Under the pieces are notes generated by a model, which was given only the letters and a program-made list of their open reading frames with translations, was not told where the DNA came from and made no database searches. Positions 6,232-46,534 of a stretch of DNA of 49,522 nucleotides are shown piece after piece. The stretch is from an uncultured bacterium (lineage in GTDB: Bacteria > Desulfobacterota > GWC2-55-46): the NCBI GenBank assembly GCA_905339405.1, contig CAJPGC010000011.1, forward strand, positions 71,588 to 121,109, written 5' to 3'. Position numbers and translations under genes: made by a program. Every line of letters begins with the position of its first letter. Within the stretch, counting starts at the first letter, position 1.

Positions 6232-6269
6232 TTAACAAGCTCCTAGTCAGAATTTTTATCGCAGAGTAA

Positions 6270-17833: not shown

Positions 17834-17942
17834 TGCGCACCTGAGAGTTCAAAAAAATTTACGTGACCGGGAAAAGTGGAAGCTTAAAACGGAGCGTATT
17901 AACGAAGTAATCCTGTAATGAACCCCTGGCCATGGAAAACTT

Positions 17943-17986
17943 AGCAATTTTTCTGAGGTCAGATCAGGGAAAACAGCAATTTTTTA
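17943..17986 (-). repeat. dispersed AT-rich intergenic repeat, copy A (3' of rseP)
   Basis: On the minus strand this begins with the rseP stop codon TAA and continues AAAATTGCTGTTTTCCC, then ACCTCAGAAAAATTGCTAAG. Copies with the same two halves occur after ilvE (32890-32944) and in the rpsB-tsf gap (24278-24410). A partial match lies at 45049-45064. Identity with the ilvE copy looks like roughly three quarters by eye. Confidence 0.55.
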
Positions 17987-19285
17987 CCCGAATATCCGGG
18001 CGAGGTCGTTCCACGTGACAAGCACCATGAGGCCTATGAGGAGCGCTATGCCGACCTGCTGGGCTATTGTCATGAACTTCTCGCTCAAGGGCTTGCCTTT
18101 TACAGCCTCGAGGCCGAAAAAGACGATATGGCCTCCGTCGAGGACCGGTATCGGGAAGAGGTTTATGATGCCGAGCTGGAGGCTCAGGAACGCCACGAGC
18201 GAAAGGAGGTCGGCGATGCCGGATTCGGCAGCCTTCCCCGCGACCTGCGCTATCATGATGGGGCCGCCGAGCGTCTTCAATGAGTACTCGCCGAAGACGA
18301 GCCCCTTTATGACTACGAAGAGCTTGCCGGTCATCTCGATGCCGGAGGAGACGCCCTTGGTGATGGACTCTCCGAAGCCGTACTGGCGCGAGACGAGCTC
18401 GTCCTGCCTCGAGATGCCTATGAGATGGACCTTGGCGTCCTCGTTGTACTTGGGCACCACTTCAAAGGCGAGCTCCTTGCCGTCCCTCATGACCTGGAGC
18501 TTTTTCTTGCTGCCGCTCTTGTGTATGACGTTCTCGAGCTCGGCCCAGTGGTTTATCTTCACGCCGTCTATCGAGAGTATGAGGTCGCCGGCCTTGAGCC
18601 CCGCCTCTTTGGCCGGATAGCCGGAGGCAACGTCTCCGATGACGGGCTTCATCGGCGGGTACATGCCGCCGTATCCCGCGCCTGTCTCTTTGGAAGTGTC
18701 AGGAGTTATCGAGGTCTGTATCCTCTCCCCGTCCCTCTGGACGGCGAGCTCGACGCTCTTCGACGGGTTCATGGCGAGCTGCGTAAGGAGGTCTTCCCAG
18801 TCCTTCACGTCCTTGCCGTCTACAGAAACTACGGTGTCCCCGGCCTTTATTCCGGCCTTCTGGGCTGGCTCGTCAGGGACGACGTAGCCGACTTCAGCGG
18901 GCCTCTCAAGGTACGCAGGGAGCTGTATGCCTATCATGAATATTACGGGCAGGAGGACTATCGCCAAAATGAGGTTCATGGCCGGGCCTGCCGCCACTAT
19001 GGCCGCCCTTTTCCAGACGGGCTTGTGGGTGAAAGACTTCATGCGCAGCTCAGTGGAGACTTCCTCACCCGGCGCCTCGCCGACCATCTTCACGTACCCG
19101 CCGAGCGGCAGGACCGATATCCTGTACTCGGTCTCACCCCTTTTGATTCCAACGAGCTTCGGGCCGAAGCCAAGGGAGAACTTCTCCACCCCTACGCCGC
19201 AGGCTTTCGCCACCGCAAAATGGCCGAGCTCGTGTATGAATATCAGTATGCCAAGAACGATTATGAAAGAGATTAAGGTCGTCAT
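17984..19285 (-). CDS. rseP: RseP-type site-2 zinc metalloprotease
   Basis: 433 residues. The zinc motif HELGH (H18, E19, H22) is in the first membrane segment. Two tandem PDZ domains follow (GYVVPDEPAQKAGIKAGD and VASGYPAKEAGLKAGD, about 130-290). The third zinc ligand is in NLFPIPVLDGGH near the C-terminus. It cleaves membrane proteins such as anti-sigma factors within the bilayer. It follows dxr by 31 bp in the conserved cdsA-dxr-rseP order. Its stop codon is the first codon of repeat copy A. Confidence 0.95.
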   Translation of the reverse strand: MTTLISFIIVLGILIFIHELGHFAVAKACGVGVEKFSLGFGPKLVGIKRGETEYRISVLPLGGYVKMVGEAPGEEVSTELRMKSFTHKPVWKRAAIVAAGPAMNLILAIVLLPVIFMIGIQLPAYLERPAEVGYVVPDEPAQKAGIKAGDTVVSVDGKDVKDWEDLLTQLAMNPSKSVELAVQRDGERIQTSITPDTSKETGAGYGGMYPPMKPVIGDVASGYPAKEAGLKAGDLILSIDGVKINHWAELENVIHKSGSKKKLQVMRDGKELAFEVVPKYNEDAKVHLIGISRQDELVSRQYGFGESITKGVSSGIEMTGKLFVVIKGLVFGEYSLKTLGGPIMIAQVAGKAAESGIADLLSLVAFLSLQLGIINLFPIPVLDGGHIVFFGLEAVKGKPLSEKFMTIAQQVGIALLIGLMVLVTWNDLARIFG

Positions 19286-23589: not shown

Positions 23590-24237
23590 CTACTTCTGCG
23601 CCGCCGCCACTTCAGCGGCGAAATCGGTCGTTTTCTTTTCTATTCCCTCACCGACCTTGAACCTGGAGAACCTCCTCACGGAGATGTTCTCGCCTATCTT
23701 GGCGATGTTCTCGATGACGAGCTTCTCTATGGTGACGTCGGGGTTTTTCACGAAAGGCTGCTCAAGGAGGCATATCTCCTTGTAGAACTTCTCGATCTTG
23801 CCTTCGACCATCTTCTGGATGACGTTCGCGGGCTTGCCGGACTCCTTGGCCTGCGCCTCGAATATCTGCTTTTCCTTTTCGACGACGTCGGCCGGGACTT
23901 CATCGCGGCGCACGTACTGGGGGCTCATGGCGGCTATGTGCATGGCTATCTCTTTCACGAGCGCGCTGAAGCCGTCGGTCTTTGCGACGAAGTCGGTCTC
24001 GCAGTTGACTTCGAGGAGCACTCCGACCTTGCCGCCCGCGTGGATGTAAGAGCCCACAATGCCTTCTGAAGCGACCCTGCTGGCCTTCTTGGCGGCAGCC
24101 GCGAGGCCCTTTTCACGGAGCCAGGATACCGCCTTCTCAAAATCACCTTTTGTCTCGCCAAGGGCCTTCTTGCAGTCCATGAAACCTGCCCCTGTTTTCT
24201 CCCTGAGTTCCTTTACTGCTGACGCGGAAATCTCCAT
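23590..24237 (-). CDS. tsf: translation elongation factor Ts (short form)
   Basis: 215 residues, shorter than the E. coli protein (283) but typical of the short bacterial form. It starts with a UBA-like domain ([19 protein letters not shown]) and carries the EF-Tu contact motif [11 protein letters not shown] at about 80-90. It exchanges GDP on EF-Tu. It lies 185 bp after rpsB, a wider gap than usual, which holds a large inverted repeat. A strong terminator follows. Confidence 0.97.
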
Positions 24238-24268: not shown

Positions 24269-24410
24269 GGCTGCCTCTAAAAATTGCTCTTTTTCCTGAC
24301 CTCTGCGTCAGGACGTAAATAAAAATGCTCACATATTATTCATATATGTTGCGCTTTTTATTTCCGCCCTTCCTTGACTTCAGAAAAAATATCTACTTTT
24401 TGAGGCAGCC
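24269..24410. repeat. inverted-repeat element in the rpsB-tsf gap, with repeat copy B
   Basis: GGCTGCCTC (24269-24277) and GAGGCAGCC (24402-24410) are perfect inverted copies, each adjoining an A5 or T5 run on the inner side. Inside the left arm on the plus strand is AAAAATTGCTCTTTTTCC (24280-24297), the core of the repeat after rseP and ilvE. The right half (CAGAAAAAATATCTACTTTT) matches the second half of those copies. About 65 bp of unrelated AT-rich DNA separates the halves here. It fills nearly all of the 185-bp gap between rpsB and tsf. Confidence 0.55.
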
Positions 24411-24422
24411 CTGCTATCAAAA

Positions 24423-25226
24423 TCAGCTCTTGGCTGCGTCGGCAGGCGCGGCTGCCGGGGCGGGAGCAGCTGCCTGGGCTGCCGCCGCTGCCGCTGCCTT
24501 CTCCTGGGCCTGCTTGTCGCTCTTTGCCTGGAGGGCCTCTTCGTACTGTGCCTTGCCTTCGAGGCAGGCGTCGGCCATCGAAGCCGCGAAGAGCTTTATG
24601 GCCCTTATGGCGTCGTCGTTGCCCGGGATGATGTAATCGACGCAGTCAGGGTCGCAGTTGGTGTCGACTATGGCGACGACCTTGATGCCCAGCCTGTTGG
24701 CTTCCTGTATGGCGATGGTCTCTTTCTTGGAATCGATTATGAAAAGGACGTCAGGTACGTGGCCCAGTTCCTTGACGCCGCCCAGGTACTTCTCAAGCCT
24801 TTCCTTCTCTCTCCTGTACATGAGGAGCTCTTTTTTCGTGGAGGAGGCGAAGTCCGGGTTGGTGTCGAGGGTGTCGAGTTCCTTCAGCCTGTTTATGCTC
24901 TTCTTGACGGTGGCGAAGTTGGTGAGGAAGCCGCCTATCCAGCGGTTGTTTATGTAGCCCATCCCGGCCCTTCCGGCCTCTTCCTGGATGGCGTTCTGGG
25001 CCTGCTTCTTGGTGCCCACGAACAGGACGCGGCCGCCCTTTGAGGCCGTGTTCCTGACGAAATCATAGGCTTCCTTGAACATCTTGACGGTCTGCTGGAG
25101 GTCGATGATGTAGATGCCGTTCCTCGCGCCGTAGATGTACTGCTTCATCTTCGGGTTCCACCTCTTGGTCTGGTGGCCGAAATGCACGCCTGATTCGAGA
25201 AGCTGTTTCATTGTAAGATAAGCCAT
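24423..25226 (-). CDS. rpsB: 30S ribosomal protein S2 with Ala-rich tail
   Basis: 267 residues. The S2 core is clear: [32 protein letters not shown], and [12 protein letters not shown] then [15 protein letters not shown]. After about residue 232 comes a low-complexity tail made mostly of Ala, Pro and Gln. GGGAGG lies about ten bases before the ATG. It is the first gene of the rpsB-tsf unit, behind a good promoter and a leader of about 100 nt. Confidence 0.98.
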
Positions 25227-30652: not shown

Positions 30653-32857
<2,205 letters not shown>

Positions 32858-32889
32858 CTCGTCCTTTTCAGACCAAGCATTTTAATATG

Positions 32890-32944
32890 CCTCAAAAATT
32901 AGTAATTTTCCGAGGAAAGAGACCGGGAAAAAGAACAATTTTTA
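32890..32944 (-). repeat. dispersed AT-rich intergenic repeat, copy C (3' of ilvE)
   Basis: On the minus strand it begins with the ilvE stop codon TAA, continues AAATTGTTCTTTTTCCC, and ends in a hairpin. That hairpin is a perfect 15-bp palindrome, AAAATTAGTAATTTT (32895-32909), flanked by CCTC and GAGG. It parallels copy A after rseP, which also starts at the stop codon. The element fills most of the 84-bp gap between ilvE and purL. Confidence 0.6.
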
Positions 32945-34021
32945 TCCGGCAATAGTGTGCACCCATCCGAACTTGTCCGGCTCGTCGCCGTACTGCATGC
33001 CGGTAATGAAGTCGTACAGTTTTTTGGAGAACGGCCCTGTCTGGCCGTTGTTTATCTCGAGGCAGGCCCCGTCGTGGCATATCTCGCCCACGGGCGAGAT
33101 GACAGCCGCGGTCCCGGTGCCGAAGGCCTCCTTCAAAATCCCCTTTTTCGAGGCGGCGAAGACTTCGTCTATCGATATCTTGCGTTCGACGACCTTCACG
33201 CCCCAGTTTTTTGCGATGTGTATTACGGAATCGCGCGTGACACCCGGGAGGACCGAGCCCTCGAGGGAAGGGGTTACGAGCTCGTCGCCGATGAGGAAGA
33301 ACATGTTCATGGTGCCGACCTCTTCGACGTACTTCTTTTCGATGGCGTCGAGCCAGAGGACCTGCGTGAAGCCTTTTTTCTTGGCTTCCTCAGCCGGGAG
33401 GAGGCTTGCGGCGTAGTTGGCCGGAGTCTTTGCCGCCCCCAGCCCGCCCTTTACCGCCCGGACGAACTCGCCGGGGGTCGTGAGCCTAACCGGGTTTATG
33501 CCTTCCTTGTAATAAGCCCCGACAGGGGAAGTGATTATGAGGAACTTGTAGTTCTCGGAGACCTTGACCCCGAGGTACTCGTCTGTGGCGAATATGAACG
33601 GCCTTATGTAAAGCGACTGGCCCCTCCTTGAGGGCACCCAGGCCGCGTCGGTCTTTACGAGGTTCACGAGGCCCGAGAGGAAAACGCCGTAATCAACGGC
33701 CGGTATGCACAGCCTGGAGCAAGACCTCAGCATCCTTTCATGGTACTTGTCAGGCCTGAAGATGTTCACCCGGCCGTCCCCGGTCTTGAAGGCCTTCAGC
33801 CCTTCGAAGATGGCCTGCCCGTAATGGAGCACCGTAAGGGCTGGCGAGACCTCGAGCTTGCCGAAAGGGATTATCTTCGGGGCTCCCCATTTGCCTCCCG
33901 AGTAGTCCATTGAGAACATATGGTCTGAAAAGAGCGTGCCGAAACCAGGGTTCTCAAGGAGGGCAGGGTCGAGCCTGCTCTTCGCGGTCTTTATTATCTC
34001 TATGTCCTTCAATATCGTCAT
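32942..34021 (-). CDS. ilvE: branched-chain amino acid aminotransferase
   Basis: 359 residues, the longer type II class IV aminotransferase. FSMDYSGGKWG and LHYGQAIFEGLKAF are typical. The PLP lysine is K198 in GLGAAKTPANYAASL. The class IV signature EVGTMNMFFLIG and SVLPGVTRDSVI follows. It makes Leu, Ile and Val from their 2-oxo acids, completing the pathway encoded 15-27 kb away. It overlaps the upstream methyltransferase gene by four bases (ATGA type), which suggests coupling. Confidence 0.95.
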   Translation of the reverse strand: MTILKDIEIIKTAKSRLDPALLENPGFGTLFSDHMFSMDYSGGKWGAPKIIPFGKLEVSPALTVLHYGQAIFEGLKAFKTGDGRVNIFRPDKYHERMLRSCSRLCIPAVDYGVFLSGLVNLVKTDAAWVPSRRGQSLYIRPFIFATDEYLGVKVSENYKFLIITSPVGAYYKEGINPVRLTTPGEFVRAVKGGLGAAKTPANYAASLLPAEEAKKKGFTQVLWLDAIEKKYVEEVGTMNMFFLIGDELVTPSLEGSVLPGVTRDSVIHIAKNWGVKVVERKISIDEVFAASKKGILKEAFGTGTAAVISPVGEICHDGACLEINNGQTGPFSKKLYDFITGMQYGDEPDKFGWVHTIAG

Positions 34022-43509: not shown

Positions 43510-44949
43510 CTACCCCGACCTCCTGCCGCCTTCGCCGGTGTCGTGTATGCCGAGCTCCTTCATTTTAAGGAGCAGGGTATTTCTGTGGATGTTGAGCCTC
43601 CTGGCAGTCTCTACCCTGTTCCAGCCGGTCCTGTTGAGCACCCCAATGATATAGCGCCTCTCAAAGAGCTGGACGGCTTCTCTCAAGTCCCTGGCTTCCA
43701 GGGCCGTGCCCTCCGCTGCTTCTGGGATTATGCCGGAGGGCAGGTCGTCGGCCGTGATGACCTGGCCGTCTTCGGCGAGCACCACTAGCCTTTCCATGAG
43801 GTTTTCAAGCTCGCGTATGTTGCCGGGCCACCGGTATTCGTTCAAAATGGACAAAGCCTCGTCGGTTATCCCGGAAACGCGCTTGTTGCAGGTCCTTCCG
43901 TGCTTTTCAAGGAAGTGCTTCAAAAGGAGGGTTATGTCTTCTTTCCTTTCGCGCAGCGGCGGCAGCTCTATGGGGACTACCTTGAGCCTGTAGAAAAGGT
44001 CCTCCCTGAACCGCCCCCTGCCGACCTCTTCGGCGAGGTCGACGTTGGTTGCCGCGATGACCCTTATGTCGACCTTTATCGAAGTGTTTGAGCCCACCCT
44101 CTCGAAGGACTTTTCCTGAAGCACCCGGAGGAGCTTTATCTGCAGGTGCATCGGCAGCGTCGAGACCTCATCCAGGAAAACTGTCCCTGTGTCCGCGTAC
44201 TCGAACTTGCCTATCTTTCTCTGGTGGGCGCCGGTGAAAGAGCCTTTTTCATGGCCGAAGAGCTCGCTTTCCATGAGCTCGGAGGGGACCGCCCCGCAGT
44301 TTACCGCGACGAACGGCTTGTTATTTCTCAGGCCCATCGACTGCACTGCCCTGGCGACCAGCTCTTTTCCTGTGCCGCTCTCCCCTGTTATGAGGACGTT
44401 CGACGAGGTATTGCTCACCGCTTTTATGAGCTCGAATACCCTTTTCATCCTCGGCGACCTGCTTATTATCTCGCCGTAGCCCTGCTTCTCCAGAAGCTCC
44501 TCGCGGAGGAACGCCACTTCGCTCTTGAGCTGAAGCCCCTCTGTGAGCCTCTCGAGAGTGGCCAGCAGCTTGTCGGCATCAAAGGGCTTGGTCAGGTAAT
44601 CGTAAGCGCCGAGCCTCAGGGCCAGGACGGCCTGCTCGGCGCTGTCAGAGGCCGAAAGCACCAGCACGCCTATGGCGCTGTCGTACTCCTTTATGAGCTT
44701 CAAGGCCTCGAGCCCGCCCATGCCAGGCAGCTGCAGGTCCATGAGAACGATGTCGACCGGCTGGTTCCTTACGGTCGAGACGGCCTCGATGCCGCTTTTT
44801 GCAGTTACCGGCTCATAGGAGTCGCCGAGGATGAACTTCAATGTCTCTAATACCTGCGGGTCGTCATCGACCAGCAGGACGACAGGTCTTTTCATATCCA
44901 CCGCCTGTTCATGGAAGTAATCAAAATGCTTTGCCGGCAGGCTCCCCAT
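43510..44949 (-). CDS. NtrC-family sigma-54 dependent response regulator (orphan)
   Basis: A receiver domain (VVLLVDDDPQVLETL, phospho-acceptor Asp in IVLMDLQLPGMGG), a AAA+ sigma-54 activator domain (GESGTGKE, GHEKGSFTGAHQRKIGKF as a GAFTGA-loop variant, VFLDEVSTLP) and a C-terminal Fis-type helix-turn-helix (NRVETARRLNIHRNTLL). It activates sigma-54 promoters when phosphorylated. No kinase gene adjoins it, although ntrYX lies upstream. The start is uncertain: ATG 44949 has GAGGG four bases before it, while ATG 44895 fits the usual receiver start (MKRPVV). Earlier in-frame starts lie before or inside the predicted promoter at 45018-45045. Confidence 0.9.
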   Translation of the reverse strand: MGSLPAKHFDYFHEQAVDMKRPVVLLVDDDPQVLETLKFILGDSYEPVTAKSGIEAVSTVRNQPVDIVLMDLQLPGMGGLEALKLIKEYDSAIGVLVLSASDSAEQAVLALRLGAYDYLTKPFDADKLLATLERLTEGLQLKSEVAFLREELLEKQGYGEIISRSPRMKRVFELIKAVSNTSSNVLITGESGTGKELVARAVQSMGLRNNKPFVAVNCGAVPSELMESELFGHEKGSFTGAHQRKIGKFEYADTGTVFLDEVSTLPMHLQIKLLRVLQEKSFERVGSNTSIKVDIRVIAATNVDLAEEVGRGRFREDLFYRLKVVPIELPPLRERKEDITLLLKHFLEKHGRTCNKRVSGITDEALSILNEYRWPGNIRELENLMERLVVLAEDGQVITADDLPSGIIPEAAEGTALEARDLREAVQLFERRYIIGVLNRTGWNRVETARRLNIHRNTLLLKMKELGIHDTGEGGRRSG

Positions 44950-45017
44950 TGTTCCCTCGCTGGAAATATACATGATGAGTGGAGCAAAACTATAAATTAG
45001 CTGTTTAGTATAAACAT

Positions 45018-45045
45018 ATATTAACAGGTTGTGAGCATATGTCAA
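45018..45045 (-). promoter_or_regulatory. candidate promoter of the orphan NtrC-type regulator
   Basis: On the minus strand, TTGACA (45045-45040), a 16-base spacer and TAATAT (45023-45018). Transcription would start near 45011, about 60 bases before the ATG at 44949. It lies next to a partial copy (45049-45064) of the dispersed AT-rich repeat. Confidence 0.65.
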
Positions 45046-45048
45046 GCT

Positions 45049-45064
45049 AAAAAATGCTCTTTTT
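45049..45064 (+). repeat. partial match to the dispersed AT-rich repeat, copy D
   Basis: AAAAAATGCTCTTTTT on the plus strand differs by one base from the start of the core seen in the rpsB-tsf gap (AAAAATTGCTCTTTTT). The second half is not recognisable, though another A/T run follows. It lies between ntrX and the orphan regulator and could be chance in AT-rich DNA. Confidence 0.3.
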
Positions 45065-45163
45065 AAATAAAAAATTTCAAGATGGAGTTTTCCAGGTGCT
45101 GGCCTGGTCGTGGCGGGTAGCGTCTAGGTGAGGGCCTCTAATGAGCCGGATGTATCCATCCGG

Positions 45164-46534
45164 CTATATGTTTTGAAACTCAGTCTCTTCGTGCTCTATC
45201 CCGTAGCTCTTTATCTTCCTGTAAAGGTGGCTCCTTTCTATGCCTATGGCTTCGGCTGTCTTCGCGATGTTGCCGCCGAAATCCTTCAACTTCCTAACGA
45301 TGAACTCCCTCTCGAAATCCCTCCTCGCCTCCTTGAGGAGGCTTCCGCTGAAGAGGCCCGGCTGCGCCTGCGCGCCTTTTATGTAGCTCGGGACGTCCTC
45401 CGGGGTTATCGTATTTGAGCGGGCCATTATGACGAGCCGCTCGACGAGGTTCCTGAGCTCGCGCACGTTGCCTGGCCAGCGGTAGCCGTTGAGTATATCG
45501 ACCGCTTCCCTGCTTATCGCGGGCACTTCCCTCGCCGTCTCGCGGCTGAACTCGCGGAGGAAGTGGCTCAACAGCAGCGGCACGTCCTCTCTTCTTTCCC
45601 TCAAGGGCGGGACGTGGAAAGGGATGACGTTGAGCCTGTAAAAGAGGTCCTCCCTGAACCGCCCCTTTGAAACCTCTTCCTTCAGGTCCTTGTTCGTGGC
45701 CGCTATTACCCTGACGTCGACGGTGATGTTCTCTGTGCCGCCTACTCTTTCAAAGGACTTCTCCTGAAGGACCCTCAAAATCTTCGCCTGGGTCTTCAGC
45801 GACATGTCGCCTATCTCGTCGAGGAAGATGGTGCCCTTGTCGGCCATGTCGAACTTCCCGGCCTTCCTCTGGTGCGCTCCGGTGAAGGCGCCCTTCTCAT
45901 GTCCGAAGAGCTCGCTTTCAATGAGTTCTTCGGGTATGGCCGCGCAGTTGACCTCTATGAAGGGCTTGCCCGCCCTGTTCGACAGGAGGTGTATGTTCCG
46001 GGAAACGAGTTCCTTGCCGGTTCCGTTCTCGCCGGTTATGAGCACCCACGAGTTGGACGGCGCGGCCCTCTCTATGTCGCTCTTTAGAGCGAGTATCGAA
46101 GGCGAGCTGCCGATTATCTCATACTTGGCCCAGGCCTTCTGCTTGAGCTGCCTGTTCTCCTCCAGGAGCCTCTTGTGCTCTATGGCGTGCTCGACAGTGA
46201 GGACCACCTTGTCGAGCGAGAGAGGCTTTTCGATGAAGTCGTATGCCCCGAGTTTCGTCGTCCTGACGGCCGTCTCTATGTTGGCGTGCCCGGATATCAT
46301 GATGACGGGAATGCCCGGGTACTTCGCCTTTATCTCCTTCAAGGCCTCGGTGCCGTCCATGCCGGGGAGCCATATATCCAGGAGAATGACGTCGGGAGAG
46401 CGCGTCTCGAGTTTCTTGAATGCCTCCTCGGCGTTGGCCGCCGCTACGACCTCATGCCCCTCGTCCTTGAGGACGCCCGTCAGAGAGTCCCTTATGTTCT
46501 TCTCGTCGTCGACCAGCATCACTGTCGTCTTCAT
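45164..46534 (-). CDS. ntrX: NtrX-type sigma-54 dependent response regulator
   Basis: 456 residues: a receiver with D53 as the phospho-acceptor (VILLDIWLPGMDG), a AAA+ domain with GENGTGKE, the intact GAFTGA loop (GHEKGAFTGAHQRKAGKF) and GTIFLDEIGDM, then a Fis-type helix-turn-helix (NIAKTAEAIGIERSHLYRKI). The linker KAWAKYEIIGSSPSI is typical of NtrX. It overlaps ntrY by four bases, so the pair is made together. A 9-bp hairpin AGCCGGATG/CATCCGGCT (45144-45165) begins at its stop codon. Confidence 0.93.
   Translation of the reverse strand: MKTTVMLVDDEKNIRDSLTGVLKDEGHEVVAAANAEEAFKKLETRSPDVILLDIWLPGMDGTEALKEIKAKYPGIPVIMISGHANIETAVRTTKLGAYDFIEKPLSLDKVVLTVEHAIEHKRLLEENRQLKQKAWAKYEIIGSSPSILALKSDIERAAPSNSWVLITGENGTGKELVSRNIHLLSNRAGKPFIEVNCAAIPEELIESELFGHEKGAFTGAHQRKAGKFDMADKGTIFLDEIGDMSLKTQAKILRVLQEKSFERVGGTENITVDVRVIAATNKDLKEEVSKGRFREDLFYRLNVIPFHVPPLRERREDVPLLLSHFLREFSRETAREVPAISREAVDILNGYRWPGNVRELRNLVERLVIMARSNTITPEDVPSYIKGAQAQPGLFSGSLLKEARRDFEREFIVRKLKDFGGNIAKTAEAIGIERSHLYRKIKSYGIEHEETEFQNI

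Follow-up and report, generated by a model that had tools for sequence, protein, structure and literature searches.

The window, by which we mean the whole 49,522-nucleotide stretch of DNA analyzed here and to whose positions our coordinates refer unless another locus is named, contains three copies of a dispersed repeat that are borne out by a covariance model. The longest, a full-length element of 141 bp, lies at 24269–24410 on the plus strand (E = 4e-35) in the gap between rpsB (24423–25226, minus strand; Pfam Ribosomal_S2) and tsf (23590–24237, minus strand; EF_TS); it is a near-palindrome, and the model matches its minus strand too. Its left terminal inverted repeat (TIR), GGCTGCCTCTAAAAATTG, occupies 24269–24286 on the plus strand as an exact match to the TIR pattern, and the right TIR, at 24393–24410 on the minus strand (G000:C11:95980-95997), has 3 mismatches. 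This is the copy that the first-pass annotation had placed, in plus orientation, at 24278–24410. The gene order from 25226 to 17984, rpsB–tsf–(pyrH) and on through to rseP, resembles the classic operon; the full-length element has inserted between rpsB and tsf. A second copy, internally deleted, lies at 17927–17994 on the minus strand (E = 1.5e-4), directly after rseP (17984–19285, minus strand; Peptidase_M50 and PDZ), and begins at the rseP stop TAA. The third, also internally deleted (minus strand, 32885–32953; E = 9.9e-6), sits in the gap between an ilvE-like gene for a class IV aminotransferase (32942–34021, minus strand; PF01063) and purL (30653–32857, minus strand; AIRS domains and FGAR-AT linker). 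The ilvE stop codon at 32942–32944 is the element's own TAA, and it is thus true of both short copies, as had been proposed, that the stop of the gene is the first part of the element.

A further copy proposed at 45049 is marginal. The doubtful, decayed candidate (45039–45095, plus strand) scored 17.4 bits (E = 0.0013) in a search of 300 bases and gave no match when the model was run over the whole window. Weaker echoes suggested near 6235 and 17850 reached only 2–3 bits and are unsupported. The adjoining minus-strand genes at 43510–45045 and 45164–46534 form a tandem paralogue pair, sharing two long stretches that are 73–75% identical and offset by exactly 1648 bp.

That the repeat is real and dispersed is borne out by its core, AAAAATTGYTCTTTTTCC, which at up to three mismatches has 4 matches in the window versus 0.04 expected, and 62 genome-wide versus 5 for the reversed pattern. 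The second of the two shared blocks originally described, CCTCAGAAAAATT, is not significant by itself (4 found, 1.2 expected), but it corresponds to the right arm of the element. When all core matches were read out, most copies proved longer than the core, and the real unit is not the 55-bp element first proposed but a near-perfect palindrome of 141 bp; the ilvE and rseP copies lack its center. Since the covariance model shows about 70 central bases to be absent, the two blocks are the two surviving arms of the palindrome. The element is short and carries no transposase gene, its overall range being about 36–220 bp. It ends in TIRs, GGCTACCTCTAAAAATTG...CTAATTTTTAGAGGCAGCC. Among full-length copies, 91 could be read at both ends; in these the TIR consensus is GG[C/G]T[A/G]CCTCTAAAAATTG, reverse-complemented at the far end, and the outer stem pairs. 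When folded, the copy at 24269–24410 forms a single extended hairpin (-42.6 kcal/mol, z = -6.8), as does copy L007 (-52.6 kcal/mol, z = -7.7), and the covariation of the hairpin exceeds that of shuffles and slid controls. The covariance model, built from 36 copies, places the element at about 61 distinct sites (both strands merged) in the 2.65-Mb genome from which the window comes, hereafter the own genome. Rfam gave no match at the gathering threshold over the window and five further loci, apart from a tRNA, and even at E values up to 5 nothing that overlaps the long forms; no element match was found in plasmids, phages, or viral contigs. We found no description of the family by sequence, in Rfam, or in a limited literature search.

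The copies bear the marks of insertion. The target-site duplication (TSD) is 4 bp long: the bases just outside the TIRs are identical in 37 of the 91 two-ended copies, where 4.1 are expected and 500 shuffles gave at most 10; lengths of 2, 3, and 5–9 bp show no excess in the same copies. The consensus of this TSD is T-(T/A)-(A)-A (TTAA 7, TAAA 5, TTAT 4, TGTA 4), but the window copies themselves have lost any clean duplication. Empty sites occur in relatives at rseP–tsaB, at ilvE–purL, and elsewhere. The cleanest filled/empty pair is at rseP–tsaB (tsaB being so named from its translation) in genus g6, where G017 is empty, GCCTTGAAGATACTGG, and G008 is filled, GCATTGAA[141 bp]TGAAGATACTT, with the insertion flanked as TGAA[element]TGAA. 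Across genomes, the rseP site holds a full-length copy in G001, G002, and G003 and is empty in G017, G027, and G025. In the ilvE–purL gap, G001 and G003 carry the element as the own genome does, whereas G002 and every other genus that has this gene pair lack it; most of these element-free gaps are 2–24 bases long or have overlapping genes. Copy number is likewise uneven within family f1. Three member genomes have no copy and others exceed 50; the own genus ranges from 44 to at least 54, and contrasts inside single genera reach at least 54 versus 14 and 53 versus 5. The named carriers are groundwater 'Deltaproteobacteria' MAGs. TSDs, empty sites, and uneven copy number together uphold the earlier suggestion of a mobile or spreading intergenic repeat, and the first two confirm that the element is a miniature inverted-repeat transposable element (MITE), a non-autonomous DNA transposon that belongs to a known kind but forms a new family. 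In other genera a different palindromic repeat, CTGCTGAAAAAGTCC...TTTTTGAGCAGTCTG, was seen in the same two gaps (ilvE–purL in G029, L273; rseP–tsaB in G014, L286), hinting that these are preferred gaps for several repeat families.

The family falls into size classes of about 36–50, 70, 141, and 220 bp. At the rseP site in genus g10, with the same flanks, the element is about 40 bp in G028, 141 bp in G012, and about 220 bp in G024. Short copies of the own genome have full-length orthologues at rseP and elsewhere (L138 with L025 and L058; L133 with L043). At the ilvE site only short versions were seen, with a 52-bp version in G001 and G003. The minimal copies of 36–48 bp amount to two TIRs back to back (L249:1452–1490, L134:319–366, L135:4467–4515). 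Those in L134 and L135, 46–48 bp long, contain little beyond the two TIRs, the former with a perfect TSD, TTTA; such copies may represent the smallest unit able to move or else the outcome of extreme deletion. At the other extreme, the subfamily of about 220 bp (L145:2377–2600, L121:1286–1511, L099:1307–1532, and ten more copies) has an additional conserved module of about 85 nt (GCCAAAGTT...CAGCCGTTTGATACGGATTTGCCCGTCCGGC) that has no Rfam match. Two composite copies, L242:1280–1590 and L253:5700–5870, enclose another palindromic repeat (GTCATTGCGAGCGAAGCGAAGCAATC...) between the ends of the element. With full, shortened, minimal, and empty states all occurring naturally at the same sites, the family allows bacterial MITEs to be tested as passengers versus functional RNA hairpins.

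The association with stop codons, which had drawn attention to the element, can be accounted for by where it lands. All 223 distinct copies fall outside genes. By gene-pair class, 179 are in tandem, 24 in convergent, and 20 in divergent gaps, against 1089, 139, and 143 element-free gaps, in tests that cover loci from the own genome, G001, G002, and the named MAGs with home-made gene calls. With a median of 37 bases, tandem gaps are so short that any insertion falls near a stop; 110 of the 179 tandem copies are nearer the upstream one. Relative to the element, stops cluster at two places: the larger cluster is in or beside the TSD, and the other is at the TAA of TAAAAATTG, which serves as the stop of 16 genes. 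The association arises because intergenic gaps are short, target sites resemble TAA/TGA, and the element brings a TAA of its own. At ilvE, comparison with G001 (GGATAG CTTAAAGGGAG...) points to a lost left end as the event that made the element's TAA the stop codon. A shared 3′-UTR signal, the other reading first offered, is thus unnecessary for explaining placement, and as a cause of spread it fails, the gene-pair classes matching the background; a secondary role in RNA is kept open by the conservation of the stem, discussed below. More generally, a mobile element can furnish stop codons without breaking genes.

We searched for an autonomous transposon or transposase with matching ends and found none by PF01609, PF13701, PF07592, and PF13546 or by the TIR pattern in the own genome, where what the pattern matches is almost always a copy of the element. 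DDE_Tnp_1 is practically missing from the family, PF13701 gave nothing above the cut-off and PF13546 nothing, and the single PF07592 match is a fragment at a contig end with no TIR. In G027, two inverted TIRs separated by 1.7 kb (L241) were considered as the ends of a longer transposon, but they enclose no transposase-sized ORF and belong to composite or nested copies. PF01797 (Y1_Tnp) is absent from the own genome, which is 95% complete, with positive controls.

After insertion, the inner part of the element changes little. In 24 shared full-length copies it is 92% identical, versus 56% at fourfold-degenerate sites of the flanking genes, and its identity is the higher in all 24 pairs. We then restricted the comparison to 18 strict orthologue pairs, with the same orientation and the same boundary, leaving out three positionally matched pairs of opposite orientation because these may be independent insertions. 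In this set, differences amount to 3.4% in stems, 14.4% in unpaired inner positions, 29% in the apical loop, and 33% at the outer ends, the last value perhaps raised by the way the termini align. There are 7 double changes, in which both partners of a pair differ, versus 0.95 expected; 5 of them preserve the pair. Taken together, the stem conservation and the compensatory excess are read here as signs that the hairpin has been under selection since it inserted, and suggest that some copies now act at the RNA level.

There are partial alternatives to selection. One is loss of decayed copies from view: the comparison covers recognized copies and would miss those decayed beyond recognition, of which the sites shared by the own genome and G001 may hold at most 3, versus 8 conserved. 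The other is gene conversion between copies, which in a plain selfish MITE whose copies are under no selection would produce both the similarity and the stem conservation. The marker pair 29/113, which separates subfamilies, recurs among the double changes, and gene conversion could explain part of them. However, paralogues within the own genome (87% alike) are no closer than non-orthologous copies of the own genome and G001 (88%), and orthologues are clearly more alike than either, which argues against genome-specific homogenization; the stem rate, moreover, is a quarter of that at unpaired positions. An unselected MITE kept uniform by conversion thus seems unlikely, though by no means negligible.

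Three other accounts fare worse. The palindrome has an A-tract and a T-tract near its ends and is intergenic, as a family of bidirectional intrinsic terminators would be, but there is no terminator-like match within 24269–24410, a distinct GC-rich stem and T-run can be seen by eye after several copies, and many copies lie within tandem gene runs such as rpsB–tsf; we consider this very unlikely. A vertically inherited 3′-UTR element or regulatory RNA located behind stop codons, with no transposon involved, would fit the strong hairpin, its covariation and stem conservation in orthologues, and the nearness to stops. It is already contradicted by the 4-bp TSDs and the clean filled/empty pairs, and copy numbers ranging from 0 to more than 50 within one family, location classes like the gene-pair background, and the lack of an Rfam family also weigh against it, making it still less probable than the terminators. 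Least credible of all is an element of the REP/BIME type, which a RAYT (Y1) transposase would mobilize in the form of single-stranded DNA: many short palindromic intergenic repeats would be in keeping with it, but the Y1_Tnp gene is absent as described above, and the element has a 4-bp TSD, which is not expected from Y1 transposition.

The best explanation as a whole, and one in which we have high confidence, is that the element is a palindromic MITE whose copies lost their center in place and whose hairpin was then conserved. A DDE-type transposase presumably mobilized it in trans by cutting AT-rich T(T/A)(A)A sites, chiefly those in short intergenic gaps, with a stagger of 4 bp. Inserted copies then lose their center in place, leaving remnants of 36–70 bp such as those at ilvE and rseP; in-place loss is shown by orthologous full-length copies at the rseP site and others. 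The stop-codon association follows from the choice of target and from the TAA that the TIR brings with it. In copies that are retained, the inner hairpin is conserved as base pairs; the likeliest reason, which we put forward with modest confidence, is that it is tolerated, or else serves as an intercistronic mRNA hairpin. Candidate uses include an RNase III substrate or a stability element, for example, and which step in the life of the RNA the hairpin might serve is a guess by analogy. A tentative extension, possible but somewhat improbable, is that the MITE family, after spreading, was taken over as intercistronic RNA hairpins selected for pairing family-wide, including in the rpsB–tsf operon. 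If so, selfish insertions became a shared post-transcriptional module.

Several known systems offer comparisons. REP/BIME elements with RAYT are likewise short palindromic intergenic repeats; the present element differs in having a TSD and a host genome without a Y1 transposase. ERIC, RUP, and BOX-SPRITE resemble it as dispersed short intergenic hairpins but are found in another host group, and the TSD and sequence of our element presumably differ from theirs. ERIC inserts at the 3′ ends of genes and changes mRNA decay (PMC10969869). The Chunjie MITE of Geobacter uraniireducens is 235 bp long, intergenic, and variable in size, and sits in an operon (PMC10969869). Our element is similarly an intergenic MITE with size variation and an operon insertion, in a host long filed under Deltaproteobacteria, but it is 141 bp long and spread across many genera of one family. 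In Neisseria, Correia/NEMIS is a MITE with TIRs whose long stem-loop transcripts are cut by RNase III, and its size forms, about 107 and 155 bp long, owe their difference to an internal block (PMC2229807, PMC10969869). Like it, our element is short, intergenic, and present in many copies, with TIRs, a long stem-loop, and size forms. The sequences are unrelated, however: our element has ends beginning GG and a 4-bp TSD at T(T/A)(A)A, in contrast to TA at the Correia/NEMIS termini, and it is nearly fully palindromic, with size forms down to 36–48 bp. Cutting by RNase III, known from Correia/NEMIS transcripts, is by analogy a candidate role for the hairpin described here.
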